Shown: piece by piece, positions 57,073 to 62,266 of the stretch
How the letters are laid out: each line of letters starts with the position of its first letter
Position numbering within the stretch: the first letter of the stretch is position 1
NCBI GenBank assembly: GCA_951800685.1
Contig: CATOJY010000006.1
Span: forward strand, 1 to 64,000
Origin: an uncultured Lachnospiraceae bacterium
Lineage (GTDB): Bacteria; Bacillota; Clostridia; Lachnospirales; Lachnospiraceae
DNA length: 64,000 nt
Reading direction: 5' to 3'
Position numbers and translations under genes: made by a program
The notes under the pieces: model-generated
The model's database searches: none
What the model was told of the DNA's origin: nothing
What the model saw: the letters and a program-made list of their open reading frames with translations, nothing else

Positions 57073-57990
57073 CTATTTTTCCCGTATCTGCTTTATTTTC
57101 TCATCAGTCCAGATCACTCTGTTGCGTCCGTATTTCTTAGCATCATACAACATAGCATCCGCAATTTTCAAATAAAAGTCATAAGAATCTCCTGCCTGCG
57201 GAATGATAGTAACGCCGCCAATACTGATTGTGACCCATTCAGAAACGGAAGGGTTATGTGGAATATGAAGATCTTCGATTGCCTGGCGGATTTTAGTCAA
57301 ATATTCAAATGTCTTCTTAGAATCTTCTTTTAACAGAATCGCAACAAATTCTTCCCCTCCATAGCGTGCGAAGAAGTCTGTATCACGTTTCAAGTAAGTA
57401 GACACTGTTTTTGCTACAGAAGCAATAACTTTATCCCCTGCAGGATGTCCGAAGGTATCATTAAATACTTTAAAACGGTCGATATCAAACATACAGATTG
57501 AGAAAGGAATCTGCAGCCGAATAGCCTCTTTCCATTTCTTTACACTATATTGATCATACTGCCGCCTATTTGGAATCCCAGTCAGCTGATCCGTCATAGA
57601 CTGATGTTCAACCTGCTTCCGATAGTGATACAGCTTGACATGGGTATTCACTCTTGCTTTTACAATTAACGGACTAAACGGTTTCGTAATATAATCAACT
57701 GCACCTAACGTAAGACCTCGTTGTTCATGCTCTATATCAGAAAGACTGCTAATCAAAATAACAGGAACACTTTGTGTAAAAATTTCCTCCTGTAATTTCT
57801 TAAGTAGTGTAAAGCCATCCATACCAGGCATAACTACGTCCAGCAGAATTAAAGAATAATCCTCTGTACATGCATATTGAAATCCATCTTCTGCAGTCTG
57901 CGCGATGGTAATATCATATTCATCGTTTAAAATATCATTTAATTGCGCCGTTAACAAAGGGCTGTCATCGATGATCAGAATTTTTTCCAT
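57073..57990 (-). CDS. Response regulator with diguanylate cyclase output (WspR/PleD type)
   Basis: A 305-residue protein: receiver domain (1-120, phosphorylated Asp51 in LLDVVMPGMDG, acid pocket DD 8-9, Lys103) and GGDEF domain (about 130-300) with the active GGEEF at 211-215. The product-inhibition site RxxD is present (Arg202, Asp205, five residues before GGEEF). It should make c-di-GMP when phosphorylated and be feedback-controlled. First gene of the unit with the binding protein and hybrid kinase, so that kinase is the likely phosphodonor. Confidence 0.93.
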   Translation of the reverse strand: MEKILIIDDSPLLTAQLNDILNDEYDITIAQTAEDGFQYACTEDYSLILLDVVMPGMDGFTLLKKLQEEIFTQSVPVILISSLSDIEHEQRGLTLGAVDYITKPFSPLIVKARVNTHVKLYHYRKQVEHQSMTDQLTGIPNRRQYDQYSVKKWKEAIRLQIPFSICMFDIDRFKVFNDTFGHPAGDKVIASVAKTVSTYLKRDTDFFARYGGEEFVAILLKEDSKKTFEYLTKIRQAIEDLHIPHNPSVSEWVTISIGGVTIIPQAGDSYDFYLKIADAMLYDAKKYGRNRVIWTDEKIKQIREK

Positions 57991-58147: not shown

Positions 58148-60049
58148 CTATCCCATCAAAGATAAAATCATATTCGGCTGTTGATTCGCCTGGGATAACA
58201 CAGACTGTCCTGCCTGAAGCAGAATCTGATTGATCGAATACTCTACCATCTCTTCTGCTATATCAGCATCCCTGATCAAAGATTCAGACACAGTTGTGTT
58301 CTCTACAATGTTATTTAAATTAGAGATTGTATGTTCTAATCTGTTCTGTACTGATCCATAATCACTTCTGACATGACTCACATACCCAATTGCTAACTTG
58401 ATCTCGTCAATCGCCCGCTCAGCATTTTCTACTGATCCCACATTTGTACCGGTTAGACCGAGTGCTTCTGAATCCATCCGATAGAAATTGACTGTAATAT
58501 GCTGTCCTGAATCCGCACCTACCTGAATACCTACACCATTGCTGTTTCCAGAAGAACCTCCTGGAACAACAGGGTTTTGCGGATTGTTTGGATCTGGATT
58601 CCAGTTGATATTACCGATGATCTTCCCGCCTCCAACATTCAAAGAAGGCGTAATCACTGAACCAGCCCCTCCAAGAGAAGCATAAGACAACTGTCTGACA
58701 AACGCTACAACATTGGCACCGCCTCCATTAATCGCACCTTTGAGCTGCGCTTGTGTCATACCTGTATTATCTTTTAATGCCTGCTCAAATGTTTTGCCAC
58801 CCATTAAATCCGCAAAAATTTTGTTCATTCCTGCAGCGATATTAGGACCCGTTACTGCGCCGCCGCCATTTGCCAGATATCCAGCATAGGCTGCCGCAAG
58901 ATATCCATGTCCATATGGCCTGTTATCAACAGTATATCTTTTCAGGTATTGCTGGATATTTGCATCCTGGCTGGTATCATTCGCTCCTGTCAACTGCTTC
59001 GCATAAGCAATCAGATTGTTATTCCATTGGGTAGGAAAACCGCCCCCTGCAAGCTGTGCTGTTCCCTCTTTAAACCATTCGGGAAAATAATATGCAGAGC
59101 CTTTTCTGCCTTTCGTCGCCATACCGTCAGTCATGGCAAACTGCATGACAGAATGCATGAATTCATGAGCTATCGTAGACTGCAGCGCTTCTACCCTATT
59201 ACCTGAACCTTCCGCATCCGCAGCAGTGAAATCTGCAACGTCAACTTGTATCTGTAAGTTATATCCCCTGCCAGTACTTCCATAAGTAAATCCTGCACGA
59301 GCCAATGTTTTATTCAAACCGTCTATCTTAACAACACTGATCTTAATATCCATGGTTTCATTCCCGATATTATTCTTAATAGACGGAAAAGCATCAAAAA
59401 TCTGCTTTGCTGCGTTTGGAATCAGATCCTTGACAATAACGTCCGCCAGGTTTCCTCCTCCTGAAACCGGATTCACAGCAGCACGTCCTGCTGCCTGCGT
59501 GCTTAGACTCAACATCTGCTGTGTAGACTCATCCAGGTCTTCTACCGTATATGATCCATCTTGTAAATTTAAACGTAGTGTAAAATGGCTGGTTTTTGAT
59601 TTGGAAAATCCATCCTGCGGGGAAATTCCGTCTTCTGGAAAAAGTGGTACCTCATTAAATACAGTATGTCTCGATGTAGTATCAATCTCATTCTTAATCT
59701 GTTGAAGTTCTGTATCGATCATAGATCTGTCTTCTTCAGTCCATGTACCGTTGGCTGCTTTCACCGCAAGCTCATTCGCCCTCTGCAACATGGCATGCAC
59801 TTCATTTAAGGCACCTTCCGCAGACTGCACCATAGAAATTCCATCCTGTGCATTGGCGGCTGCCTGTGTCAGACCACGGATCTGCCTGCGCATTTTCTCA
59901 GAGATTGCAAGCCCAGCCGCATCATCCGCAGACTGATTAATCCGATAGCCTGAGGATAATTTTCTGGCTGTTTTCGCATTCTTCTTATCGTTAACCCCAA
60001 ATTGCCTGCCTGCATTGATCGCGAGCATATTACTTCTAACAGAAAACAT
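58148..60049 (-). CDS. Flagellin with inserted zinc metallopeptidase domain (flagellinolysin)
   Basis: Filament protein of 633 residues, about twice a clostridial flagellin. The N-terminal D0/D1 helices (about 1-135: TARKLSSGYRINQSADDAAG, ISEKMRRQIRGLTQAAANA) and C-terminal D1/D0 (about 507-633: IQVGADSGQHITVNF to LLQAGQSVLSQANQ) are complete, so it can polymerise. In between, where flagellins vary, lies a peptidase domain (about 137-480) with the zinc motif H295-E296-F-M-H299 and a downstream glutamate (E328 in WFKEGTAQL), the gluzincin pattern. A Pro/Gly/Asn linker (about 481-506) leads back to D1. This matches the proteolytic flagellins described in several phyla. The ATG at 60049 is chosen (AGGAG 8 nt upstream) over GTG at 60055. 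Transcribed alone from a sigma-28-like promoter. No other flagellar gene is in the window. Confidence 0.93.
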   Translation of the reverse strand: MFSVRSNMLAINAGRQFGVNDKKNAKTARKLSSGYRINQSADDAAGLAISEKMRRQIRGLTQAAANAQDGISMVQSAEGALNEVHAMLQRANELAVKAANGTWTEEDRSMIDTELQQIKNEIDTTSRHTVFNEVPLFPEDGISPQDGFSKSKTSHFTLRLNLQDGSYTVEDLDESTQQMLSLSTQAAGRAAVNPVSGGGNLADVIVKDLIPNAAKQIFDAFPSIKNNIGNETMDIKISVVKIDGLNKTLARAGFTYGSTGRGYNLQIQVDVADFTAADAEGSGNRVEALQSTIAHEFMHSVMQFAMTDGMATKGRKGSAYYFPEWFKEGTAQLAGGGFPTQWNNNLIAYAKQLTGANDTSQDANIQQYLKRYTVDNRPYGHGYLAAAYAGYLANGGGAVTGPNIAAGMNKIFADLMGGKTFEQALKDNTGMTQAQLKGAINGGGANVVAFVRQLSYASLGGAGSVITPSLNVGGGKIIGNINWNPDPNNPQNPVVPGGSSGNSNGVGIQVGADSGQHITVNFYRMDSEALGLTGTNVGSVENAERAIDEIKLAIGYVSHVRSDYGSVQNRLEHTISNLNNIVENTTVSESLIRDADIAEEMVEYSINQILLQAGQSVLSQANQQPNMILSLMG

Positions 60050-60146
60050 CTTCACTTCTCCTGAGTTCCTTCTTCCAAAGCCATCCTTGCCAATATCTAT
60101 AGAGATTTCTGTTTCGAAATTATGTCGAGAATATAATGTAATATAT

Positions 60147-60196: not shown

Positions 60197-62266
60197 TTAT
60201 TCCAAAGTAAATCCATTCACAATGTCCTCCAAGCTGTCTGCCATTTCTTTGTTTTCTTCGGCCTGGTTTTGAATTTCGACTGCAATATCTTCTGTACTTT
60301 CACTCTTCCTGACAATTTCATTGATAGCAGCACTATTCTGTTCTGATATATTTTTTACGTTCATAATATTATCAAAAATTTGTGTTACCGATGTCTGAAG
60401 ATCTCTGACAGAAACACCTAACTTCTCAATATGCTGTTTGATCAGTTCTACAGATGTACTGTAATCATTGGATTTCTTAGCAAAATCGCCAAAGCTCTCC
60501 AACACTTCTCCTTCCATATACTGCAGAATCGCCGCCATACATTGATTGACTTCATCAATACTGTCATTGGAAGCTTCACACATTGTCTGAATACGCGATG
60601 CAGTAGATTTAGAAGTTTCCGCCAGTCTGCTGATCTCTTCTGCTACTACAGTAAAGCCTCTTCCCATTTCACCAGAACGTGCGGCTTCGATAGCCGCATT
60701 GATGGACAATAGATTTGTCTGGTTAGAAATATCCAGAATTGCTGATGCCATGCCATTGATCTGTGACAAACTATTCAGATTTTCCAAAGCAGCACGTATA
60801 GAATGCTTTGTAGTTACCAACTGTTCGCTAGTATTCTTTAAAGAAGCATTTGCGCTTTCCCGCATTTGCATTGCATCTTCCATGATTTCATCGCTGAACT
60901 TGGAACTGCTGCGCAAGCTCTCCGCAACATCGCTGATGCAGCGATACATACTGCTAATCTCACCATTGATACTTTCGATCGCACCGCTGACATGATCCAG
61001 ACTAGAGGAAAGCTGTTGTGTCGTGCATATATTATCAGTCACACACTCTACCAGTTCAGTAGACGTCCCCCGCAGGGAAATTGCCTTCTCATTCAATTTT
61101 GTACAGCATACTCTGAGAGTTCCCAGAATATGATTCAATGACTTAATAACCTTATCAGATGCGGTGGCCATTTCTCCCAGATCATCATTTCTGTCAGCAT
61201 ATTTATGCATTTCACCTTTGTCGCTGATATTACAATCTGCAATCTGGAGCAGTGTACTTGTGATTGGTGACAATGGCTTCATAAACCTCGAAATAACAAG
61301 ATAAGTCAATATCATCAAAAATGCCAGTCCTACAACACAAAGTGTCATAAGCTCAAATCTGGCTATATTTGCAGTCGCAAAAATCTCATCGGCGGTATCT
61401 GTCAATAAAAACAGCCAGTTTCTATCTGGAAAATAATGATATGCCGCAATACTTTCCTCACCACCATCAGTATACTCTATATATTTTGTGGAATTAGACT
61501 GTGCGCCTTGCTGTTTTACTTCATCGAGAATATGAGCGATATATTCTTCCTCAGCCTTCTTCCCAAGTTTTCCTTCATCATCATTAAAAATATATTCTCC
61601 TGTCTGTGTATTGATCAGGTAATAACTTGCATTGTTCAATCCAGCCGTAGGCAAAGCATTAAGTTCCTCACGAAGGCCAGAAATGAAAATACCTGCTCCG
61701 ACCAGACCGATCGGATTTCCTCCTTCATCCAGACAAGCACGATACATGGACACAATCTGTTCCCCACTTGCCGGTGAAAAGATAAAACCTGCATTGTACA
61801 CTCCATTTGCTTCCAACATCGCTTTCTGCAGCTGTTTTAAAGAATCTCCTTCTCTCGTTGTAATACCCACTACTGCTTCATTCGTATGTGTAAGAACATG
61901 TGTGTTCCATTCGCTGGCATAGATCCCCTCCAGCCTTTCAATATCTCCACTAAACTTTTCCGTGTATTCCTGTGCTTCCGAAACCACTGATGGATCAGCA
62001 GGATGCAACATTAGATCTGTAATTTCTCCTGCTCTGCTGTATGCCGTAAGGTGGCTTTCCGCCTGACGTACATAACTTTCTATGATCTGGGAACGGTCAT
62101 CTACGATCGTCTTCATACTTTCAATCGTATTAGCACGAATATTTCCAGTGATCGTCCTGCTCATGAAAATATACAGCATAGCAAATATAATGATCTGAAG
62201 TGCCATGATGTAAGATGTAATTTTGTAAGCTACTTTCTTTTTCTGTCTCATCGCCCTGATAACCAC
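60197..62266 (-). CDS. Methyl-accepting chemotaxis protein with double-Cache sensor
   Basis: Chemoreceptor of 689 residues: membrane span (about 16-38), extracellular double-Cache domain (about 40-290), second span (about 304-326), HAMP (about 327-380) and a cytoplasmic signalling coil with the hairpin tip IEAARSGEMGRGFTVVAEEI (526-545). No CheR-binding pentapeptide at the end. Cache domains of this type often bind amino acids, organic acids or sugars. The start may be GTG at 62266 or ATG at 62251. It follows the ribulokinase stop by 18 bp, so the two appear cotranscribed. Confidence 0.93.
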   Translation of the reverse strand: MVIRAMRQKKKVAYKITSYIMALQIIIFAMLYIFMSRTITGNIRANTIESMKTIVDDRSQIIESYVRQAESHLTAYSRAGEITDLMLHPADPSVVSEAQEYTEKFSGDIERLEGIYASEWNTHVLTHTNEAVVGITTREGDSLKQLQKAMLEANGVYNAGFIFSPASGEQIVSMYRACLDEGGNPIGLVGAGIFISGLREELNALPTAGLNNASYYLINTQTGEYIFNDDEGKLGKKAEEEYIAHILDEVKQQGAQSNSTKYIEYTDGGEESIAAYHYFPDRNWLFLLTDTADEIFATANIARFELMTLCVVGLAFLMILTYLVISRFMKPLSPITSTLLQIADCNISDKGEMHKYADRNDDLGEMATASDKVIKSLNHILGTLRVCCTKLNEKAISLRGTSTELVECVTDNICTTQQLSSSLDHVSGAIESINGEISSMYRCISDVAESLRSSSKFSDEIMEDAMQMRESANASLKNTSEQLVTTKHSIRAALENLNSLSQINGMASAILDISNQTNLLSINAAIEAARSGEMGRGFTVVAEEISRLAETSKSTASRIQTMCEASNDSIDEVNQCMAAILQYMEGEVLESFGDFAKKSNDYSTSVELIKQHIEKLGVSVRDLQTSVTQIFDNIMNVKNISEQNSAAINEIVRKSESTEDIAVEIQNQAEENKEMADSLEDIVNGFTLE

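Follow-up and report, generated by a model that had tools for sequence, protein, structure and literature searches.

The closest described systems are two proteolytic flagellins. In Clostridium haemolyticum, FliA(H) (MEROPS M101, clan MA) carries flagellin ends around a gluzincin whose third Glu is E262 and whose Ala at Glu+3 is A265; according to the main text of the founding paper, both the domain and the filaments are active, the enzyme is displayed on the surface, and a change of the general base abolishes activity (PMC5595980). In Hylemonella gracilis, the domain of HgrFlaMP is reported to be proteolytically active and its gene to lie outside the flagellar cluster (PMC7643111). The founding paper names the peptidase domain of clostridial collagenases (M9) as the closest homolog of flagellinolysins, at about 13% identity, and its discussion leaves undetermined which protease was ancestral to the insertion into flagellin (PMC5595980). 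Judged by its sequence, the gene studied here, which lies in a window of 64,000 nucleotides from an uncultured Lachnospiraceae bacterium (Table 1), is a flagellinolysin of MEROPS M101 and belongs to this already described kind. Like FliA(H), its product combines flagellin ends with a gluzincin bearing HExxH, a distal Glu and an Ala at Glu+3, whereas the distal Glu follows HExxH by 25 residues in FliA(H) and by 29 in the window protein. HgrFlaMP, compared with the window protein by description only, differs in its Gram-negative host but is likewise a proteolytic flagellin encoded outside the flagellar gene cluster (PMC7643111), so that a place away from that cluster, which the original prediction had read as a distinguishing mark, is not unusual.

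Table 1. Positions of the flagellinolysin gene, its parts and its neighbours in the window
Feature	Positions	Strand	Basis or remark
Flagellinolysin (proteolytic flagellin) gene	58148..60049	-	633 aa from ATG; NCBIfam NF033876, 226.8 bits
Flagellin_N (D0/D1, N-terminal)	59639..60037	-	PF00669, 124.9 bits, above cut-off
Peptidase domain, residues 202-478 from GTG	58622..59452	-	Alignment with the domains of 18 relatives, of which four are non-flagellins
HEFMH, zinc ligands and general base (predicted)	59153..59167	-	Invariant in 19/19 rows of alignment A1
EGTA, predicted third zinc ligand Glu and Ala three residues on	59057..59068	-	E, G and A invariant in A1
Gly/Ala-rich stretch, C-terminal part of the conserved peptidase domain	58655..58912	-	A1 invariant columns G183, Y189, G208, G264 (domain numbering)
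Pro/Gly/Asn-rich linker back to the flagellin core	58532..58621	-	Three-sequence alignment; length variable
Flagellin_C (D0/D1, C-terminal)	58154..58408	-	PF00700, 86 bits, above cut-off
Sigma-28-like promoter, TAAT-N16-ACCGATAA	60147..60174	-	In 2% of random 300-base stretches; 16-base spacer also at the L052, L053 and G370 copies
Chemoreceptor, MCP signal domain (dCache just under cut-off)	60197..62266	-	PF00015; not conserved beside relatives
Response regulator with GGDEF	57073..57990	-	PF00072, PF00990; not conserved beside relatives

The window gene as a flagellin

The open frame on the minus strand extends to a GTG at 60055 (58148-60055). Two codons inside it, the ATG at 60049 is preceded eight bases ahead by AGGAG and matches the starts of the relatives P0015 and P0016 in a three-sequence alignment, and the residue numbering of the original prediction is therefore right; HEFMH lies at 295-299 and the distal Glu at 328 from this ATG, or at 297-301 and 330 from the GTG. 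Complete flagellin ends around an insert with HEFMH and a Glu 29 residues on, as predicted, were confirmed by PF00669, PF00700 and the domain alignment, and no Pfam family scored above its cut-off between the two ends. The predicted flagellinolysin identity is in turn borne out by the equivalog model NF033876, which the window protein (P0001) passes with 226.8 bits at a cut-off of 205, by the invariant active-site set and by the main texts of the two family papers (PMC5595980, PMC7643111). Because NF033876 covers some of the flagellin core and the plain flagellins P0002 and P0003 reach only about 50 and 57 bits against it, most of the window score comes from the peptidase. Among 397 genomes of the family, 213 gave some match to this model, mostly through the flagellin core, and five were above the cut-off. 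P0015 passes (207.7 bits) and P0016 does not (188.6 bits); the model covers the window's clade in part, several close relatives lying just under the cut-off.

The nearest named relatives, L052 and L053 (both labelled Lachnospiraceae; L054 is labelled Eubacterium), are 69 and 68% identical over the query. The N- and C-terminal parts of the window gene's flagellin core are 83/78% identical to those of the L052 flagellinolysin and 70/66% to those of G370, but at most 63/58% to six other flagellins of its own genome (six compared, of about twelve); the whole gene therefore seems, from these comparisons, to have been inherited as one unit. A recent domain swap into one of the genome's own flagellins is disfavoured by the same six-flagellin comparison, the core being closest to flagellinolysins of other species. 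A mobile origin of the domain was rejected, relatives being absent from plasmids and, after tblastn, from viral contigs. The G+C content is 44% for the gene and 43% for the window.

The window gene probably encodes an ordinary, active flagellinolysin, and we hold it very likely that the product is a late flagellar subunit that would be made under sigma-28, exported through the flagellar secretion channel as in the two studied relatives and built into the filament as a minor component alongside the other flagellins of the genome, thereby displaying an active zinc gluzincin. The D0/D1 ends would pack into the filament and the outer domain would be the peptidase, with zinc bound by the two His of HEFMH and by Glu328 and with Glu296 as the general base, cleaving peptides and proteins in the cell's surroundings; the mucin, matrix or competitor proteins named in the original prediction may be among its targets. 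The analysis itself shows the architecture, the family membership, the conserved active site and the promoter-like site; by analogy with the studied relatives, we infer export, surface display, dependence on zinc and calcium, and activity of the window protein. Broken flagellinolysin copies among relatives (L053, G031, G338, G283) count against this explanation. On a different, unlikely reading, the protein passes the flagellar channel and then works mostly as a released protease rather than as a filament subunit. In favour of it, related proteins with this peptidase begin with what looks by eye like a signal peptide and would be secreted as free enzymes, and about a dozen other flagellin genes are present in the genome. 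However, the window protein has complete flagellin ends on both sides, and the activity of C. haemolyticum was, according to the main text, mostly removed together with the filaments by ultracentrifugation (PMC5595980), which favours a subunit of the filament.

The peptidase domain and its active site

The domain of 277 residues was aligned with those of 18 relatives (alignment A1, 19 domains). Its invariant columns include H, E, H, M, P, W, E, G, the A at E+3 and two Tyr, and the catalytic set stays invariant across the 19 domains down to 18% identity with the window's domain. It is very improbable that the outer domain is catalytically dead and serves a structural or adhesive role; one relative (G283) has lost the general base, with HGLMH in which Gly replaces it, in a gene that is also broken in frame, and another (G626) has lost the domain core through an in-frame deletion, but in a wider set of 24 proteins, selected for a motif with either HE or HG, on which no source was lost, HExxH is kept in 23, the window copy among them, and the distal Glu in all 24. 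In this set (window included), the third ligand follows the last His of HExxH by 20 to 37 residues, and the 29 residues pointed out for the window protein, which reflect four more loop residues than in L052, are accordingly not distinctive. The Gly/Ala-rich part (about 380-465) had also been held to set this copy apart; it sits inside the domain common to the 19 aligned sequences, with four invariant columns, and a special extension is thus ruled out. An Asp common to three close relatives (D272 from GTG) lies 25 residues before the first His and is a candidate for the calcium-binding Asp, which lies at 27 in FliA(H).

Against the PDB, the domain profile gave no match above chance level (best E 0.12), and the six families that Pfam lists for P0001 (E up to 1) include no M9 collagenase; compared with the window domain, M9 collagenases thus give no sequence match in Pfam or PDB, and a remote homology is possible.

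The promoter-like site and the sensory neighbours

The pattern TAAW-N16-NYCGATAW, which we take to be close to the sigma-28 consensus, precedes the window gene as well as the L052, L053 and G370 copies and is absent at L054. It was set after the sites had been seen; with this pattern, 8 of the 21 flagellin-type operons scanned (the G276 and G358 loci lie outside the scan) have a strict match and three more a loose one (11/21), against 2-2.8% of random stretches and none of six non-flagellin genes. Even the loose pattern is absent upstream of the other 10 of the 21 and of P0003. An earlier, score-based scan was weak, 7% of random stretches scoring at least as high as the window's site, and was replaced by the pattern and the relatives. 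In G054 and G097, the pattern lies ahead of a small zinc-ribbon gene, and would there place the zinc-ribbon and flagellinolysin genes together under its control.

That the Gly/Ala-rich stretch and the sensory neighbours form a distinct, chemotaxis-coupled system is very unlikely. In its favour, the next gene upstream, at 141 bases and in the same orientation, encodes a chemoreceptor; against it, the stretch is conserved peptidase, the promoter-like site separates the two genes, and neither the chemoreceptor nor the response regulator nor the binding protein of the window gave a match (tblastn at 1e-10) in the loci of 13 relatives. With the kinase and the carboxypeptidase as queries, L054 and L063 showed matches of 30-36% identity, which is the level of paralogs. 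The sensory neighbours, named in the original prediction as a further distinguishing mark, are therefore not conserved across these 13 loci, and a unit of these genes with the flagellinolysin was rejected.

Relatives outside flagellins and a linked zinc-ribbon gene

The distribution of the peptidase was followed with a domain-only profile in samples of 397 family, 391 class and 398 phylum genomes. Within the family, 24 genomes matched (own included), or 22 once the weak and seemingly unrelated matches of G052 and G249 are set aside; 18 of these have a flagellin-type copy and four (G080, G092, G293, G302) a non-flagellin copy only. G193 has a flagellin-type copy and two non-flagellin ones, and the G276 copy is of the classic type. 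Twenty class genomes matched (own included), strongly in G614 and G658, with a shortened copy in G626 and flagellins of the classic type in G421, G484 and G576 (56-64 bits); the remaining matches, at 18-23 bits, look unrelated by eye. For the phylum, the figure is 39 (own included), seven of them at 42-62 bits and flagellins where inspected, and the others at 31 bits or less. Four flagellinolysin genes (L053, L068, L071, L069) have in-frame stops or a frame change, from decay or assembly error, and that of L069 (= G283) also carries HGLMH. In G626 (L102:1198-2379), the peptidase ends inside HExxH and continues in frame into the flagellin C-terminal core, with the zinc-ribbon gene retained.

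Some relatives are not flagellins. P0009 and P0010 (both G193), P0011, P0012, P0013 and the G658 protein (loci of signal-peptide-like peptidase proteins: L057, L058, L059, L060, L061, L062 and L101) differ from the window protein in having a signal-peptide-like start, judged by eye, instead of flagellin ends, and no flagellin family was found in the five scanned, P0009-P0013 (Pfam, E 0.01). P0009, P0010, P0012 and P0013 share with the window protein a peptidase domain with the A1 invariant residues, P0011 and the G658 protein being outside A1. In BLASTP, P0001 matches P0013 over residues 207-469 (33% identity, 8e-31) and P0009 over residues 203-431 (23% identity, 4e-11); P0013 also bears a dockerin (PF00404, 41.2 bits, cut-off 22.9). 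A further non-flagellin copy, in G302, has an in-frame stop. In a tree of 35 domains, in which G276 and G097 sit on long branches and the composition of G080 is unusual, the window clade is separate from the classic type (support 100/99); classic-type flagellins reach 42-64 bits against the clade's domain profile, whereas its intact members reach 153-337. FliA(H) is grouped with the classic type by assumption, its own sequence being outside the comparison. As the window clade stands apart from the classic-type domains, its specificity may differ from theirs. In this tree, the six non-flagellin forms are spread over three separate positions, the starred branches requiring at least three changes, and constraint tests rejected a single clade both for the non-flagellin forms (p=1.7e-5) and for the flagellin-borne ones (p=1.1e-5), which suggests that the peptidase moved repeatedly between filament and secretion. 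The changes would be either three exits from flagellins or a larger number of insertions into them, and the nesting of secreted-looking relatives among flagellin-borne ones makes this traffic between contexts traceable.

A gene for a small zinc-ribbon protein (113-133 residues in 18 aligned sequences, four CxxC-type pairs mostly kept, invariant final Trp-Asp) adjoins 18 of 23 flagellin-type loci (18 family genomes, L052-L054, G614, and G626 with its peptidase core deleted) on the same strand, with gaps of 13-180 bases where measured; it is downstream in the window's own clade and G301, and upstream in other loci. The loci of this family are L016, L052, L053, L063, L066, L067 and L070-L074, and the flagellin-type loci without an adjoining copy are the window, L054, G276, G278 and G380. 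No listed family reached its cut-off (two proteins in Pfam, three in NCBIfam; for one protein, among the best 25 of 63 and of 27 matches), the protein is absent from the plasmids searched, and its tree is weakly resolved, long branches grouping together. At 60 bits or more, the protein was found in 17 of 397 genomes: 15 of these are among the 18 that carry a flagellin-type copy, and two are among the remaining 379 (Fisher p=2e-22, ignoring kinship), with some circularity since the profile was built from copies beside flagellinolysins, one from the window's own genome excepted. Of the two outsiders, G241 has the gene at a contig end and G047 has no flagellin within 1.5 kb. In the four genomes whose copies are all non-flagellin, there is no strong match; G293 has a weak one (36 bits), which is not beside a flagellin.

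A flagellinolysin has to pass through the cytoplasm of its own cell without doing harm there, and the zinc-ribbon gene is a concrete candidate for a factor that makes this possible. We suggest tentatively, and as rather less than an even chance, that the clade combines a dedicated cytoplasmic zinc-ribbon partner, which would hold the protease domain in an unfolded, zinc-free or inhibited state until export, with a peptidase that has passed repeatedly between filament proteins and secreted ones, even those of the cellulosome type. With such a partner, the secreted forms, folding outside the cell, would not need it, and the window copy would rely either on the gene located on a different contig or on no partner at all. 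Neither the link to the zinc-ribbon gene nor the non-flagellin relatives were found in print: term searches of the open-licence literature and of the main text of PMC5595980 and PMC7643111 returned nothing relevant on either the partner or the secreted relatives. The zinc-ribbon gene of the window's own genome, on contig 42 (L016:11156-11545), adjoins P0003, a 680-residue flagellin without HExxH, and the partner may therefore serve other large flagellins too; no zinc-ribbon gene lies near P0002 or the flagellins on L017-L020. The genome has fourteen Flagellin_N matches in all, on contigs 1, 8, 33, 36, 42 and 53 and in the window, or about 13 flagellins, the match on contig 36 (a 520 aa frame) resembling the hook-associated protein FlgL by eye. 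P0002 itself (L015:5275-9111) is a giant flagellin of 1278 residues in which Pfam at E 0.01 finds flagellin ends only.
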